Assembly (NCBI GenBank): GCA_025360605.1 | Contig: JANYBV010000022.1 | Span: forward strand, 62,001 to 126,000 | Direction: 5' to 3' | DNA length: 64,000 bases | Source of the DNA: Alphaproteobacteria bacterium | Lineage (GTDB): Bacteria > Pseudomonadota > Alphaproteobacteria > Rickettsiales > SXRF01 | Part shown: in pieces, positions 6,097 through 17,902 of the stretch | How the letters are laid out: every line of letters begins with the position of its first letter | Numbering within the stretch: position 1 is the stretch's first letter | The notes under the pieces: generated by a model | The model's database searches: none | The model's input: the letters and a program-made list of their open reading frames with translations, nothing else | What the model was told of the DNA's origin: nothing | Translations under genes and position numbers: made by a program

Positions 6097-6495
6097 TTAC
6101 GAAGCGGAAGCAGCTTTGCTTACTTCGTCTTTCACAACGTCTTTTTTCTCTACGATACGCGCCGCTTTGCCGGTGAGGCCACGGAGGTAATAGAGTTTAG
6201 CGCGGCGGACAGTACCCTTGCGAACCAGTTCGATGCTTTCAACGCGTGGAGAATACAGCGGAAATACGCGTTCAACGCCTTCGCCGTGGCTGATTTTACG
6301 AACGGTAAAAGCCGAGCGCTGGCCAGCGTTTTTAATAGCGATGACTACGCCTTCAAACGCCTGAACGCGTTCGCTATCGCCTTCGATGATGCGCACATTA
6401 ACGCGGATGGTGTCACCCTGAGAAAAGCTGTCGAGGCGCTTGCCTTCTGCCAGTTTCTTCATGTTTTCATGTTCGATCTTCTGAAGCGTATTCAT
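6097..6495 (-). CDS. rplS: 50S ribosomal protein L19
   Basis: L19 sits at the interface of the 30S and 50S subunits. The 132-residue sequence carries the family pattern: the [12 protein letters not shown] strand, [16 protein letters not shown], the basic segment [18 protein letters not shown], and [19 protein letters not shown]. The short Ala/Ser-rich C-terminal tail is common in alphaproteobacteria. It is the last gene of the rpsP-rimM-trmD-rplS operon, four bases after trmD. Confidence 0.97.
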
Positions 6496-6499
6496 CGTA

Positions 6500-7213
6500 T
6501 TATTCCTTTTTGTCTCTTATTAATTCAGGCCTTCGAGCCGCAGTTGTTGACTTTGACTGCTCAAGGCGCCACGTTTTTATCTGTTCATGGTTTCCAGAAA
6601 GTAGGGTATCAGGCACCTGCCTGCCCATCCAAACAGGCGGCCTAGTATAATGAGGATATTCTAGCAGTCCAGCATATTCTGACGTAATAGTGAAACTTTC
6701 CTGCACGGTAGCGTCTGCCTTGCCGATAACCCCCGGAAGCAGGCGTACACACGCATCCAGAAGCGCCAGAGCCGGAATTTCCCCGCCTGAAAGCACATAA
6801 TCACCGAGGCTTATTTCCAGCATGTCGTGATGCTCGATCACCCGCTGGTCGATACCCTCAAACCGCCCGCAAACAATTATTAAATCAATGTTTTTTAATT
6901 TTTCTACCAGTGGCTGGGTTAATGGAACACCTCGCGGGGTCATGTAGACCACCCTGCCTTGGGGGAGGATTTTTTTAGCGCCTTCGATGGCGGCATCGAT
7001 AATATCGGGCTTCATTACCATGCCGGTGCCGCCGCCGTAAGGGCTGTCGTCGACGGTTGCGTGTTTATCGGTTGAAAAATCACGAATATTTAAAGTTTTT
7101 AATGACCAAATCCCTTTTTCCAGTGCTTTACCGGCAAGCGACAGGCCAAGTGGCCCCGGAAACATGTCGGGAAACAGGGTCAGTGCTACGGCGGAAAAAA
7201 GCGGCTGTGTCAT
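6500..7213 (-). CDS. trmD: tRNA (guanine-N1)-methyltransferase TrmD
   Basis: TrmD methylates G37 of tRNAs that read CNN codons, preventing +1 frameshifts. The SAM-binding trefoil-knot region is intact: [16 protein letters not shown], then [14 protein letters not shown], then [14 protein letters not shown]. The 237-aa length is standard. The start overlaps the rimM stop by four bases (ATGA), as expected for the coupled rimM-trmD pair. L19 follows four bases later. Confidence 0.97.
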
Positions 7214-7731
7214 GGTTGTTCATCGCTTTCAATATAATCGGGCGGAATCACCGTTAAGTAGCCTTTATCGAGATCCACCGTTCCGACGAATTCGTCTTTA
7301 AACGGCAGCATTTCGGTTTTTCCGTCCGCCAATTCCAGTTCGACGATATCACCGGCACCAAAATTATAGACACCGATCACCTTGCCGTAGGTTTTGCCAT
7401 TATCTAAACGTGCCGTAAGGCCGGTAAGATCGCTGTATGTCCATTGGCCGGACGAGGTGTTTTTTCGCATCGGGGCAGGGGCATAAAGCTCCGTACCTTT
7501 GAGGGTTTCAGAGACATTACGGTCATCAACGCCTTCGATGCTAACGATCAGCAGGTCTTTGCTTATGCCATGTTTTTTAAGCTTAAACGAGCGCGTGCCG
7601 CTGGCGTTGGTGAGTTGCGGATAGGTTAAAATAGTATCGGGGGATTCAGTGAAGCATTTCACTTTCACCTGCCCCTTAACACCGTGGGCCGATGCGATAA
7701 CCGCCACGCGAATGAGATTCGGTTGGGTCAC
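7210..7731 (-). CDS. rimM: 16S rRNA processing protein RimM
   Basis: RimM helps 30S head maturation and binds S19. The N-terminal RimM barrel is recognisable by [19 protein letters not shown], and the C-terminal PRC-barrel by [17 protein letters not shown] and [20 protein letters not shown]. The 173-aa length is typical. Its start overlaps the stop of the upstream receiver protein by 4 bases and its end overlaps trmD by 4 bases, so translation is likely coupled through the operon. Confidence 0.95.
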
Positions 7732-8162
7732 GGTTCTAATTGGCTGGAGCCGATGGCAGCAGCTTTCTGGATCATTTCATCCAGCTTTATTCCGATGAGG
7801 TTGCGCTCGCCCTTGGGGCGGCTTCCGTCATAAATTTTTTCTTTTTTCATAAAGGAAATATCAAGCGGTACGGTAATTTCTGCACCGACATTGATGCTTG
7901 AAACCAGCAAAAAGGGAATTGATGGGTCTAACACCCTGATTTCTTTTGCTAACTGTGTTCCGGAAATGGAATTACGGATATTATTGTCAGATACAATGGC
8001 AACAGGCTTGTTGTGCTGCTGCGAGAGTTCTTTAAAGCGCGCCAAAAGTGCATTGGCCGTTTCGAATGTCTCTACTTCAAAACCATGTCTTTCAAGGATT
8101 TCAGCATGAGTACTCCTTGGCCCTTCATCATCATCAGCCAAAAGAACAAGACCCTTAGACAT
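7728..8162 (-). CDS. Stand-alone response-regulator receiver protein inside the rpsP-rimM operon
   Basis: This 144-residue protein is a single receiver-like domain without an output domain. The acidic pocket is D10-D11-D12 in LLADDDEGP. The likely phosphoacceptor is D59 in AIVSDNNIRNSISG, the switch Ser lies in FLLVSS, and a Lys in FMKKE matches the conserved lysine. The segment SDNNI...SISG..L is close to SDENT...SLSG..L in the 345-aa protein at 10.9 kb. The gene sits between rpsP (17-base gap) and rimM (4-base overlap), which are usually adjacent. It should therefore be made together with ribosomal and tRNA-modification proteins. The cognate kinase is unknown. Confidence 0.8.
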   Translation of the reverse strand: MSKGLVLLADDDEGPRSTHAEILERHGFEVETFETANALLARFKELSQQHNKPVAIVSDNNIRNSISGTQLAKEIRVLDPSIPFLLVSSINVGAEITVPLDISFMKKEKIYDGSRPKGERNLIGIKLDEMIQKAAAIGSSQLEP

Positions 8163-8179
8163 AGCGCCCTACAGGAGGT

Positions 8180-8500
8180 TTAAGCGGCGGCTTTCTCGCC
8201 ACCTTTGTCTTTTTTGGAACCGCGAACCGGCTTGAAAGCGGGCTTGGTCTGTACCAGACCGGCTTTATTGAAGAACAGGTGAACGCGGTCGGACATCTGG
8301 GCACCGACGGAGAGCCAGTAGTTGGCGCGTTCGCTGTCGATGGTGACGCGTTTAGCATCATCGCTAGCGAGCAATGGATTGTAAGTGCCTATTTTTTCAA
8401 TGAATTTGCTATCGCGCGGGCTGCGTGAGTTGGTCACGACAATACGGTAGTAAGGGCGTTTTTTGGTTCCGGCACGGGACATTCTGATCGTTGTTGGCAT
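8180..8500 (-). CDS. rpsP: 30S ribosomal protein S16
   Basis: S16 is an assembly protein of the 30S body. The sequence starts with the family pattern IRMSRAGTKKRPYYRIVV and continues with SPRDSKFIEKIGTYNPL and YWLSVGAQMSDRV. The 106 residues include a basic Lys/Ala tail typical of alphaproteobacteria. It is the first gene of the operon, with about 180 bases of non-coding sequence before it that must carry the promoter. Confidence 0.97.
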   Translation of the reverse strand: MPTTIRMSRAGTKKRPYYRIVVTNSRSPRDSKFIEKIGTYNPLLASDDAKRVTIDSERANYWLSVGAQMSDRVHLFFNKAGLVQTKPAFKPVRGSKKDKGGEKAAA

Positions 8501-10865: not shown

Positions 10866-11903
10866 ATGGATAAACAGACCAAGAGGAAACCTATCGTGAT
10901 TCTTGCGCTGGACGAGCCGCTGGCTCAGGACGTGGCCGCTGCGCTTCCGGAAGGTAAATATGATGTGCGTTTCGCACAATCCAGCAGTCGTGGAAATTTT
11001 ATAAGTGGCAAAGTTACGCGCAAGGAAGCTGATGCGTATGAAGCACAGCAAATGGTTGAAGCCAACGACACACACCCTGGGTTTCTTATTTCAGACGAAA
11101 ATACCACATCTTCCCTCAGTGGTGCGTCACTCACGGCCGGAGCGGGCCGTAAAGGCTGGCATACGGTACTTCGAAGCGGCTCGAATAAATCCAACCTTGC
11201 CATCATGGCGGATTATTATCTGGCAGGTGAATTTACGGGTGAACGAAACGTTGAGCAGATTGTCAAATTTATTGAAAGCCGCGTTGATGAACAAGGGCAG
11301 ATTATCCCCAAAAGTAAACTTCCACAGGTCTTGCGCTGGGAGATGGAGCTGGACGAAAGACAGAATAAAGAAGAAGCCAGAAAAGTGGAAGATAAACCTG
11401 ACCGTAAGGTACGTAGTGAGAAAATTAAATCGATGACGCTGAAGCTGGTAGATGAAATTCTCAAAGGAGAGTATCCTGAATTTCAAACCAAGCTTAACGA
11501 TTCAAGACTAGGGCGCGCATTCATTACACGGGCGATTGATGACATTGCGATGTATATCGATAATAACGATTCAACCCCTGTGATACTGACCACTGAAATC
11601 CTTGCAAGCCTTAATCAGTCTACCCGTAAATTGTCGGACAGCGAGAAGCTGCAAAAACAATTTAAAGACGATCCGCAGGCGTTTCATGAACGTGCAATTG
11701 ATGATGTGAGGCGGCGCGAGGAACGTGGGGACGAACCCTCAGGAGCCGCGGATGAATTCATTGCGCATGTGAAAAGGGAGTTTCCAGGGTTTAAGCTTCC
11801 GCATGAACAGGAAGATCAGGCCATCTGGCAAAAACGCGAGGAATTACGACGGGAAGAAAAAAGGGCGCGCAAAGGATCGGGTGGCAGGGGCGAAGAAGAC
11901 TAG
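10866..11903 (+). CDS. Hypothetical protein with receiver-like N-terminal domain (345 aa)
   Basis: The N-terminal ~130 residues look like a degenerate receiver fold: IVILALDEPLAQDVAAAL at the start, then GFLISDENTTSSLSGASL around D77. The pattern S-D-x-N-x3-S-x-S-G-x2-L is shared with the receiver protein at 7.7-8.2 kb. The conserved lysine position is not obvious. Residues 160-345 are charged and probably helical, with long Lys/Glu/Arg runs suggesting coiled coil, and end in a basic Gly-rich tail. There is no DNA-binding motif or kinase domain that I recognise. A TATAAT hexamer at 10812-10817 could be the -10 element. It converges on the ferredoxin-like gene with a 4-base overlap. Confidence 0.65.
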   Translation: MDKQTKRKPIVILALDEPLAQDVAAALPEGKYDVRFAQSSSRGNFISGKVTRKEADAYEAQQMVEANDTHPGFLISDENTTSSLSGASLTAGAGRKGWHTVLRSGSNKSNLAIMADYYLAGEFTGERNVEQIVKFIESRVDEQGQIIPKSKLPQVLRWEMELDERQNKEEARKVEDKPDRKVRSEKIKSMTLKLVDEILKGEYPEFQTKLNDSRLGRAFITRAIDDIAMYIDNNDSTPVILTTEILASLNQSTRKLSDSEKLQKQFKDDPQAFHERAIDDVRRREERGDEPSGAADEFIAHVKREFPGFKLPHEQEDQAIWQKREELRREEKRARKGSGGRGEED

Positions 11904-13813: not shown

Positions 13814-15817
13814 ATGTTTGACACTAAAAACTTTTTAAGGGGGACGAGCCTTAGTACGCTCGCATTACTTTTAACGGTTTCGCTGGCGCATGCTAACGAA
13901 GACATAAATCCGAATGAGCTGATTAATCTCTCTTTGGAACAGCTGAGTAATATTGAAGTTACCTCTGTATCCAAAAAATCGGAAAAAGCCAGCGAGGCAG
14001 CGGCTGATATTTATGTTATCTCTCAGGATGATATAAGGCGTTCAGGTCTCGCTACCATCCCTGAATTGCTCAGAATGGTTCCGGGGGTGAACGTTGCCCA
14101 ATCAGGAGCGCATGACTGGGCTGTGAGTATTCGTGGTTTTAATGACCAGTTTGCCAATAAACTTTTAGTGCTTATCGATGGCAGAACGGTTTACACGCCA
14201 TTATTTTCGGGTGTGTTCTGGGACTTGCAGGATACTCCGCTTGAAGACATTGAGCGCATTGAAGTGATCCGCGGTCCGGGTGCAACGCTGTGGGGTGCGA
14301 ACGCGGTCAACGGTGTAATTAACATCATCACTAAAAATGCCAAGGATACGCAAGGCGGATTCGCTTCGCAAACAGTGGGTAGCCAGCTTAATTCCGAAAC
14401 GACCGTTCGCTACGGTGTTAAGGCGGATGATGGCGCTTACGTCCGTGCTTATGCAAAATATGATGATTCGGATTCCTACCAGAAACTCTCCGGTAGCGAT
14501 GCGAATGATCCATGGAAAAAAGAACAAAGTGGCTTCCGTGCCGACTGGAAGCAGGGAGAAAACCAGACATTTACACTTCAGGGCGATGCTTACAGGGCTA
14601 GGGAAGACACCGTCTATAAGCTGCCGCAGCCTAACACAACCCTGCTTACTGTTCTTGATCATGAAAAAGATCACGGAGCGAACGTATTGGGACGCTGGAA
14701 TGATAAAATTTCAAAAGATTCCGACCTGACCGTGCAGATGTATTACGATTCTGCTGCGCGTGATCTTCTGCCGTACTATGCAAATATCCAGACATTCGAC
14801 GTAGACGTGCAGCACGTATGGACGGCATTGCATGGACATGAAATTATCTGGGGCGCTGGCTACCGCATGGTGGACACCAGAGAAACCTCAACGCCTTATA
14901 TCACCTTTGCTCGCACGCATCGTGACGACAGCTTATACAGCTCGTTCCTTCAGGATAAAATCACTCTGAATCCAAACGACCTGTTCCTCACATTGGGTAC
15001 CAAACTGGAACATAATGCCTTTACCGGAATGGAATTGGAACCAAGTGCGCGACTGACGTGGCTTGTCGATAGTTCCCAAACTCTATGGGGTGCGGTTTCG
15101 CATTCGGTGAGAACCCCTAGCGTCACACTTGCAGATATTCAGTTTGTTTCCAGTTCGCTGGCGAACAATCTGTTTGCGGCACGCGTAGGATCGCACACCA
15201 CGCAATCGGAAGAACTGGATGCTTATGAAGTAGGATATCGCGTTCAACCGTTGAAAAACGTGTCGGTGGATGTGTCGACGTTTTACAACGATTACAGCCG
15301 ACTTATTCTGGGTGTTCAGGGCAATGTTTATGGTGTGACCACCTCGCTCGGGACCTATAATATCGCACCTGTGTTGCCTATCAATTCCGGCACCGCAAGT
15401 TCCTACGGTTTTGAAACCTCTGTGAAGTGGAATCCTAAAAGCTATCTGGAATTGTCAGCTAATTACAGCCTGACAGAATTGAAGTTCGATCAGCCGGATC
15501 CCTATGGTTTCACCTTTGCAAACAAATCTCCTAAACAACAGTTCAATTTAAGTTCTGCGTTGCAGTTGCCTTATGATGTGGAATTTGATAACTCCCTGTA
15601 CAGCGTCGGGGCGATTGCACCGGCTGGTGTTGCTGCTATTGCATCCTACGTTCGTCTTGATTCAAGACTTTCATGGAAGCCGCTGGACAGGCTTGAATTG
15701 TCGCTTGTCGGGCAGAATCTGCTTCAGAGCCAGCATCGTGAATTTAGTAATTTCCTTTACCAGAATCAGGTGGAAGTTCCGCGCACTGTCTACGGCAATA
15801 TCAGTTGGAAGTTTTAA
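13814..15817 (+). CDS. TonB-dependent outer-membrane receptor
   Basis: This is a 667-residue outer-membrane beta-barrel with a plug, driven by TonB-ExbBD. A signal peptide (residues 1-27, ending SLAHA) precedes an extension with LINLSLEQLSNIEVTSVSKK, typical of the receptor subfamily that travels with YfiR-like proteins and histidine kinases. The plug follows (IPELLRMVPGVNVAQSG, VSIRGFNDQFANKLLVLIDG, IERIEVIRGPGATLWGANAV). The barrel ends in an aromatic strand, NISWKF. The ligand is not evident. Three bases separate it from the yfiR-like gene, so the two are likely one transcript with the kinase. Confidence 0.93.
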   Translation: MFDTKNFLRGTSLSTLALLLTVSLAHANEDINPNELINLSLEQLSNIEVTSVSKKSEKASEAAADIYVISQDDIRRSGLATIPELLRMVPGVNVAQSGAHDWAVSIRGFNDQFANKLLVLIDGRTVYTPLFSGVFWDLQDTPLEDIERIEVIRGPGATLWGANAVNGVINIITKNAKDTQGGFASQTVGSQLNSETTVRYGVKADDGAYVRAYAKYDDSDSYQKLSGSDANDPWKKEQSGFRADWKQGENQTFTLQGDAYRAREDTVYKLPQPNTTLLTVLDHEKDHGANVLGRWNDKISKDSDLTVQMYYDSAARDLLPYYANIQTFDVDVQHVWTALHGHEIIWGAGYRMVDTRETSTPYITFARTHRDDSLYSSFLQDKITLNPNDLFLTLGTKLEHNAFTGMELEPSARLTWLVDSSQTLWGAVSHSVRTPSVTLADIQFVSSSLANNLFAARVGSHTTQSEELDAYEVGYRVQPLKNVSVDVSTFYNDYSRLILGVQGNVYGVTTSLGTYNIAPVLPINSGTASSYGFETSVKWNPKSYLELSANYSLTELKFDQPDPYGFTFANKSPKQQFNLSSALQLPYDVEFDNSLYSVGAIAPAGVAAIASYVRLDSRLSWKPLDRLELSLVGQNLLQSQHREFSNFLYQNQVEVPRTVYGNISWKF

Positions 15818-15820
15818 TTT

Positions 15821-16372
15821 GTGATCAGAAAGTTTTTCTATAAATTCGTTGCTGTAGGTATTGCAGTCAGCACCATTGCTGCACCGCAACTACTGTTGGC
15901 CGATGGAAACAAAGAACCGCTTATTAAGGCGGCATTTATCTACAATTTCGTCAAGTTTGTCGAATGGCCAGCACCGAAAGCCATTAGTCAACAAGCCAGC
16001 ATTGATATATGTGTGCTTGGGGAAAATGCCATAGCTTCCGCTTCCGAAGTTTTCAAGGCGGCCTCCACCTCGAAACTGAAATTGTCGCTAGTTCAGGAGT
16101 CCAGCGCTAAGAAAGCAGCCTCACATTGTCATATCGTTTTTATCAGCCAATCGGAAATGGGGCGTTTCACTGAAATAATGGGGGCGCTCAAAGGCCAGCC
16201 GGTGCTTACGGTGAGTGATATTGATAATTTTGCCGACTCCGGTGGCATGATAGGCTTTGTCACCAACGATAATAAAATTAAGGTTGAGGTCAATACCAAG
16301 GCGGTGACTTCGGCAGGACTCAGGGTTGATGCCCAGCTGCTGGAAATTGCCGTAAAGGTGATAGACAAATAA
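15821..16372 (+). CDS. YfiR family (DUF4154) periplasmic protein
   Basis: This is a 183-residue secreted protein, with a GTG start at 15821, a basic N-terminus and a hydrophobic signal segment ending near LLLADG. The diagnostic segment KAAFIYNFVKFVEWPA is present. Further on are ICVLGENAI, HIVFIS, and the C-terminal GMIGFVTNDNKIKVEVN and AGLRVDAQLLEIAVKV blocks. In Pseudomonas YfiR represses the diguanylate cyclase YfiN from the periplasm. Here the next gene is a histidine kinase, so it may instead control that sensor. It lies 3 bases after the receptor and 18 before the kinase. Confidence 0.9.
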   Translation: MIRKFFYKFVAVGIAVSTIAAPQLLLADGNKEPLIKAAFIYNFVKFVEWPAPKAISQQASIDICVLGENAIASASEVFKAASTSKLKLSLVQESSAKKAASHCHIVFISQSEMGRFTEIMGALKGQPVLTVSDIDNFADSGGMIGFVTNDNKIKVEVNTKAVTSAGLRVDAQLLEIAVKVIDK

Positions 16373-16390
16373 TGGAACGCAGGCACACAT

Positions 16391-17902
16391 ATGCTTAGAA
16401 ATTCTTCCATTAAACTGCGCCTTACGCTGATCATTATGTCGATCAGCTTTGTGTCCGTCATGCTGACGACACTCGCTATTTCTATTATCGGTGTCTATTC
16501 CCTGAGCAACAACCTGATTCAGGAACTGGATGTAACAGCTTCCATCGTTGGTGATCGTAATACGGCAGCGTTGTTATTTAATGATGATAAGCAGGCGCAA
16601 AACAACCTGAATGTGTTCAGCGTGAATCACACCATTGTCCAAGCCTGTTTATATAACCAGACCGGTGCGCTTTTTGCCCGTTATGTAAATAGCAAATATG
16701 AGGTGGATTCTAAATGTCCGACGGAAATGTTTGAGCATATCACCGTCAGTCAGAGTCGGATCGAATTGATGAAGCCTATCGTGAAGATGCACGATAAGAT
16801 CGGTTTTATTTACGTGGAGTCCACACAGGAACAAATCGGCGTTTACATTAACAACCAGATCATGATTGCATGTTCTGTTAGCTTTGCTGCGCTTCTTGTA
16901 TCGTACTTGCTGGCGATCAGCCTTCAAAAAATGATATCGACACCTATCTTAAGTCTCGCTGAAACCGCACGTCAGATTTCCATCCGGAAAGATTTTTCAA
17001 TCCGCGCGAAGCCGGTAGGCGATCAGGAAAAAGAATTTAATAACGAACTTGTCATCCTTACCAATTCGTTCAATAGCATGTTGACAGAAATTGGCGCACG
17101 CGATCAGCAATTGAAGCAAAAAAATACCGAACTTGAAAAAGCCAAGGACGTTGCCGAAGGTGCCAACCGCGCCAAGTCACAGTTCCTTGCTAATATCAGT
17201 CATGAATTACGCACGCCACTGAACGCCATCATAGGGTTTTCATCCATTCTGATGAACCAGCTGTTCGGGGCGCTTGGTGATCAGAAATATCTGGAATATT
17301 CAAAAGACATCAACGAATCGGGCACGCATCTCCTCGATATTATTAATGACATCCTCGATCTTTCCAAAGCCGAAGCGGGCAAACTATCGCTGAATTACGA
17401 AGAGGTGCATGTCGTTAAGGCTATCAACAAATGTATCACGATCATTTCTGAGCGCGCGGAAAAAGGCAAAGTCGCCATCACCACCAACATTCCCAAAATG
17501 CTGCCTATGCTGGTGGCGGATCGTCTGCGTTTTATACAAATTATGCTCAATATTATTTCAAATGCCGTCAAGTTCACGGAAGAAAACGGCAAGGTCAATA
17601 TTAGTGCTTATACACGCTCTATCGGTGACGACGTTTCGCAGTTTATGGTCACTATTGAGGACACCGGTATCGGTATGGCCAAAGAAGATATCGATAAGGC
17701 GTTCCAGAGCTTTGGCCAGATTGACAGCGGCCTGAACCGTAAATATGAGGGCACAGGTCTTGGTCTGCCATTGACCAAAAAGCTTATGGAGCTTCATTAC
17801 GGCGAGATTCTGATTGAAAGTGAAGTGGGCAAGGGGACGACTGTAACCCTTGTATTCCCTGCCATGCCGCCTGCAGGCGCGGACTACCAGCCTAACGACT
17901 AA
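16391..17902 (+). CDS. Membrane sensor histidine kinase
   Basis: This is a 503-residue hybrid-less histidine kinase. Order: transmembrane helix ~15-37, periplasmic sensor ~38-155, transmembrane helix ~156-178, HAMP linker and coiled coil to ~250, HisKA with H271 in [13 protein letters not shown], then HATPase_c with an N-box ([16 protein letters not shown]), G1 ([10 protein letters not shown]) and G2 ([15 protein letters not shown]). The sensor part resembles the short CHASE8-like domains of kinases that follow YfiR and a TonB receptor. No response regulator is adjacent, and the next gene is a MarR-type regulator. A hairpin overlaps its stop codon. Confidence 0.93.

Follow-up and report, generated by a model that had tools for sequence, protein, structure and literature searches.

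A putative single-domain receiver gene between rpsP and rimM of an alphaproteobacterium, probably a recent gain in one species

Why should a signalling gene lie between the genes for a ribosomal protein and a ribosome maturation factor? The window, i.e., the whole stretch of 64,000 nucleotides analyzed here, carries the genes rpsP, rimM, trmD and rplS on its minus strand, with one additional gene directly after rpsP. An earlier note, made from the sequence alone, had described this gene as a stand-alone receiver that might regulate growth or translation in its lineage. Here we ask whether the gene is real, whether its product is a receiver, how long it has been at this position and whether it has a special connection with the ribosomal genes around it. 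The features concerned are the following.

8180..8500, minus strand: rpsP, ribosomal protein bS16 (Pfam PF00886, E 2.6e-28)
8163..8179, minus strand: gap of 17 bases separating the receiver start from the rpsP stop
7728..8162, minus strand: receiver gene (CheY-like, single-domain), 144 aa, ATG start (ORF list and Pfam Response_reg)
D10, D11, D59, S88, K107 of the 144-aa receiver: pocket residues (from alignments; S88 and K107 by eye)
7728..7731, minus strand: overlap of the receiver TGA stop and the rimM GTG start, GTGA, 4 bases (from the sequence)
7210..7731, minus strand: rimM, ribosome maturation factor (Pfam PF01782, E 8.7e-20)
6500..7213, minus strand: trmD, tRNA m1G methyltransferase (Pfam PF01746, E 8.8e-53)
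6097..6495, minus strand: rplS, ribosomal protein bL19 (Pfam PF01245, E 3.8e-45)

The layout described in the earlier note, with its spacing on both sides of the 144-aa frame, was confirmed from the sequence. The four flanking genes are genuine, all of them scoring above the Pfam cut-offs, and the start of rimM aligns with MTRPNLI... of the RimM of a family relative (G012). Codon usage, for which 35 long ORFs of the window served as the reference, supports 7728..8162 as a real coding gene: of the six frames, only the annotated one has a positive log-score, although in CAI (0.687) it barely exceeds one of the antisense frames (0.679). Compared with same-length fragments of these ORFs, the gene has a low third-position GC (0.43, 4th percentile), and its remaining composition measures are unremarkable (14th to 23rd percentile). 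Borders of a mobile element were not found at 7600-8300, where there is no inverted repeat and one 11-base direct repeat in two copies (91%).

A simple scan of the minus strand from rpsP to rimM yielded neither terminator-like nor promoter-like matches, and we therefore infer that the receiver gene is likely co-transcribed with its neighbors; by eye, no strong Shine-Dalgarno sequence was seen in the 17-base gap. The gene would thus be read as part of the ribosomal operon, translation of rimM would restart at the GTGA overlap, and the position would give the receiver a steady, growth-linked expression. The earlier claim that the gene is coupled to the operon accordingly stands as far as being built in and probably co-expressed is concerned, whereas no link to ribosome function was found.

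Regarding the product, the receiver profile PF00072 matched with 36.8 bits against a cut-off of 30.2 (E 4.9e-9; 36.6 bits in the receiver scan of the whole genome), which places the protein among receivers, and since this is the sole Pfam match above cut-off in the 144 aa, it classifies as single-domain. The match covers residues 6-89 only (profile positions 1-78 of 111). In alignments, the acidic pair D10/D11 and the phospho-acceptor D59 stand in register with those of other receivers, which bears out the earlier description of a stand-alone receiver with D59 and an acidic pair. S88 and K107 were placed with the CheY pocket pattern and fit its Thr/Ser and Lys positions by eye; K107 is invariant among the three stand-alone receivers aligned, and the automatic profile alignment leaves it out of register. 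The best sequence match with a solved structure is the response regulator 1yio (E 5e-4), and the top matches are mostly receivers (StyR, DctD, Spo0F, NtrC). Matches to NCBIfam response-regulator models are far under their cut-offs, e.g., 19 bits against 180 for the Brucella CpdR model. No Met-Pro follows D59, and the loop is one residue longer, as in some other receivers. The C-terminal third departs from the usual pattern: after K107 comes E rather than P, and relative to two other receivers there is an insertion of nine residues after the lysine.

A single-sequence model of the protein has a mean pLDDT of 54.8 (low confidence), with values below 50 at residues 83-108 and 120-144. Foldseek returned 11 matches at E <= 0.001 from this low-confidence model, each of them either described as a response-regulator receiver or containing one. 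The best VIA-align Z was 10.1, on a scale where values near 8 often occur for models that lack clear kin, and the rows listed include a human Rossmann protein whose name does not mark it as a receiver. With both programs the matches cover mostly the first ~90 residues of the model, so that the predicted structure supports a receiver over the first two thirds of the protein only. The gene could be a decaying or pseudo-receiver, which has kept part of the fold and lost signalling. Such a history would fit the early end of the profile match, the exchange and insertion after K107, the two segments of low model confidence and a long branch in the tree (see below). It sits poorly with a frame that stays open for 144 codons and scores positively in codon usage and with a pocket of which every residue can be placed, and we consider it unlikely.

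The age of the arrangement was read from the rpsP-rimM junctions of relatives. The family includes 15 other genomes, and the junction was read in ten of them (G001, G002, G006, G007, G008, G010, G011, G012, G013 and G015); in an eleventh, G005, rpsP and rimM are 198 bases apart by their domain coordinates. G003, with the two genes on separate contigs, and G004, G009 and G014, in which no RimM match was found, were excluded. None of the 11 family relatives that could be tested, the two congeners among them, has the receiver at the junction; in the two congeners, the distance from the rpsP stop to the matched part of rimM is at most 57 bp (G001) and 23 bp (G002). In the latter congener, an opposite-strand gene of the TMEM43 family (L078:1472-2875) separates rimM and trmD. 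Of a wider set of 29 relatives' loci, the 22 that contained rpsP, nine of them family members and 13 from other families, were read, and 7 did not contain it; the addition of seven relatives (G010 and six others) and then of 14 class genomes brought the total to 43 junctions, none of them with a receiver. One relative (G039) has 3.9 kb between rpsP and rimM with several genes inside, none of them a receiver.

When the receiver profile was run over six frames of 59 loci (some genomes twice), the window's own gene was the sole match at the junction. Away from the junction and still close to the operon, the same run found receivers in G015, which was represented by two loci, and in G029. Both lie outside rpsP-rimM and were rejected as junction counterparts, the first being divergent from rpsP and the second lying upstream of rimM and of a gene that we take to be nusB-like. 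The receiver protein of G029 (L021) has 267 aa and is encoded directly upstream of these two genes on the same strand.

Being absent from all testable relatives, the receiver is not a conserved component of the trmD operon. This weighs against the regulatory reading, namely a dedicated ribosome-maturation regulator switched by phosphorylation, made in a fixed ratio with S16 and RimM and binding either of them or a 30S precursor. The location inside the operon, the GTGA overlap and the placeable pocket residues would suit such a role, which, if true, would make ribosome assembly a direct target of two-component signalling. It is at odds with the absence from the family relatives and with the unrelated genes that take the same place in some other genomes, and in the titles and abstract openings of the papers listed in literature searches, no receiver is described in the rpsP-rimM-trmD-rplS operon or linked with rpsP and rimM. 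We regard it as very improbable. A version confined to the species, in which the receiver was recruited as a phosphorylation-controlled brake or chaperone of 30S maturation in a fixed ratio with S16 and RimM, would amount to direct two-component control of ribosome assembly and appears to us extremely improbable.

The junction itself was surveyed in 142 class genomes, in which 111 rpsP/rimM pairs lie on one contig. In 97 of the 111 the gap between the two domains is below 500 bases, which leaves no room for the receiver. The other 14 pairs include those of the window's genome and of G006; the remaining 12 were examined, together with three just under 500 bases, and the junction of L142 (G324), in which tblastn did not recognize rimM, was left out. 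In most cases the wide gaps that were read are long S16 tails or sequence without a clear gene. Some hold genes: a tRNA_bind (tRNA-binding domain) gene in G393, an NnrU gene in G336, and in G283 a frame of 223 residues, a putative nitroreductase. Among genomes of the order, G112 has a Gly_transporter gene at this junction. The 124-aa ORF at this place in G006 (L075:1828-2202) was considered as a degenerate receiver and rejected, as it has no Pfam match at E <= 1 and its score with the profile of the tandem receivers described below is not significant. In one family of the order, three genomes, G146 (L070), G060 (L073) and G081 (L079), have ORFs of ~20-25 aa between rpsP and rimM, which start with MGI or MEI and by eye are apparently membrane-spanning (MEIAIAVVGVVLGVIG-like). 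In B. subtilis, too, the KH-domain gene ylqC is, as we assume, located between rpsP and rimM. An excerpt of a published account places ffh, ylxM and ylqC of that species in one large operon with rpsP, rimM, trmD and rplS (PMC10100781). In the window, ffh adjoins a 345-aa ORF (10866-11903) for which Pfam gave no match at E <= 0.001.

The earlier statement that rpsP and rimM are normally adjacent thus holds for most of the junctions read and not for all. Because unrelated single genes occupy the place between rpsP and rimM in different lineages, the junction looks like a permissive insertion site, and a compact junction of this kind calls for caution when function is deduced from operon position in one genome. 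Absence in the testable relatives and unrelated junction genes elsewhere together argue for a recent insertion in one species rather than a conserved regulator of translation. Lineage specificity, as proposed in the earlier note, fits, though with a single sampled species as the lineage. Its suggestion of a role in growth or translation was not supported by the comparison, and apart from the position of the gene no observation speaks for it: the note had itself set beforehand absence from relatives at this position as refuting, and absence is what all testable relatives showed.

Absence could also result from loss. The gene would then be ancestral to the family and lost from all other sampled relatives, for which eight identical bases (GAACCGTG) at the rimM start of G001 and of the window might speak. 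In G001 the region is syntenic, as the orthologue of a nearby histidine kinase and rpsP lie ~11 kb apart on one contig. The identity could mean that the last codons of the receiver lie in an old, shared rimM leader; it could also be the end of a lost receiver copy in G001, which is less likely. An ancestral gene would have to have been lost separately by each of the two congeners and by all the other readable genera of the family, against one gain, and a single gain is therefore preferred as the simpler history; we rate ancestry with repeated loss as very improbable. Some observations tell against an insertion as well: the 4-base overlap and the operon orientation are tidy for a random event, the composition is ordinary apart from third-position GC, and one genome per species was searched.

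No orthologue of the receiver was found by protein search in the other 15 family genomes, where two weak receiver matches had ~30% identity, nor in the 384 other class genomes. At E <= 1e-5, 11 of these 384 gave a match, mostly receivers within larger frames, including the best one (31 bits). Among 55 relatives, the own genome included, a protein search returned only four weak matches besides the protein itself. A genome collection yielded one partial match (48 residues, in an Omnitrophota genome) and viral contigs none, in scans whose seeds were short peptide patterns of one protein, matched exactly, so that they reached close relatives only. Plasmids gave 85 records, with 31.5% identity over 99% of the query at the top-ranked place, and phages one weak record (28.9% identity over 60%).

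The own genome holds 43 receiver matches, including the 144-aa protein. An origin by duplication within this genome was rejected: over the 30 loci compared, the best BLAST match had E 0.006 and 29% identity, and phmmer found none. These loci represent 30 of the 42 other receiver matches, some of the other 12 lying inside them, and a protein search of the whole genome found no second match at E <= 0.001.

Tandem arrays of stand-alone receiver-like genes occur in two genomes of the family, five genes in G006 (L126:1377-3404) and three in G010 (L003:53-1160). The arrays are flanked by genes that we take to be malic-enzyme-like and malate-synthase-like; several members have an unusual ITDxDTxS Asp loop, and one member of each array has no Pfam receiver match. 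Membership of the window protein in this group was rejected, as the group's profile gives it 32 bits and many ordinary receivers 34-52. In a first tree, it was paired with another long branch. After removal of two long-branch rows and of the second domain of one such protein (by a name filter; 89 of 92 rows kept), the rebuilt tree grouped it with the tandem receivers, with a support of no more than 51, and placing it with DWNME-type receivers instead was likewise not rejected (p-AU 0.475).

Phosphate donors for the receiver exist, as 23 of the 24 HisKA matches in the genome are over the cut-off, and one of these histidine kinases probably phosphorylates it. The nearest is an orphan at 16391-17902 of the window, ~8 kb from the receiver, with CHASE8, HisKA and HATPase domains; the next other receiver match on the contig is ~49 kb further. 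This kinase stands in a row (13814-17902) with a TonB-plug receptor and a YfiR/HmsC-like protein. Of the 15 other family genomes, 13 have it at full length (61-78% identity); it is partial in G012 (60%) and represented in G006 by a paralogue-level match only (50%, C-terminal half). Conserved in relatives without the receiver, it must be far older than the latter and was rejected as a partner gained together with it. It may still phosphorylate the receiver, for which the kinase itself provides no specific evidence.

Taken together, we consider it probable that the gene is a single-domain receiver recently gained by one species, co-expressed by virtue of its position, phosphorylated by a kinase and without a special tie to S16, RimM or TrmD; such a connection is probably absent. 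A response regulator without an output domain would have been inserted between rpsP and rimM in their orientation, a histidine kinase would phosphorylate it at D59, and the phosphorylated protein would act through protein contact or phosphate transfer, like other single-domain receivers.

Among known systems, the trmD operon, as given in an excerpt of its description, has the same gene order rpsP-rimM-trmD-rplS, to which the window adds one gene between rpsP and rimM (PMC10931766). The tandem receivers of G006 and G010, from the same family, share with the window protein the stand-alone form and a similar Asp loop (ITDNDTRSAMTG against VSDNNIRNSISG), and several of them likewise have no K-P. 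The receivers of FixJ, StyR and DctD (5xso, 1yio, 1qkk) rank among the best matches in sequence and fold, most of which span about residues 3-93. They are fused to output domains, whereas the window protein has none and its C-terminal third matches poorly. CpdR and DivK are single-domain response regulators of Alphaproteobacteria. A further one, MrrA of Caulobacter, is documented as a single-domain receiver hub in an excerpt of its source (PMC5964349). The window gene differs from MrrA, CpdR and DivK in its place within a ribosomal operon and in having neither Met-Pro after the Asp nor K-P; with all three it shares a receiver that stands alone, an acidic pair and phospho-acceptor Asp, and no output domain. 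The 144-aa protein thus appears to resemble MrrA, CpdR and DivK in type, a likeness that carries no claim of orthology.
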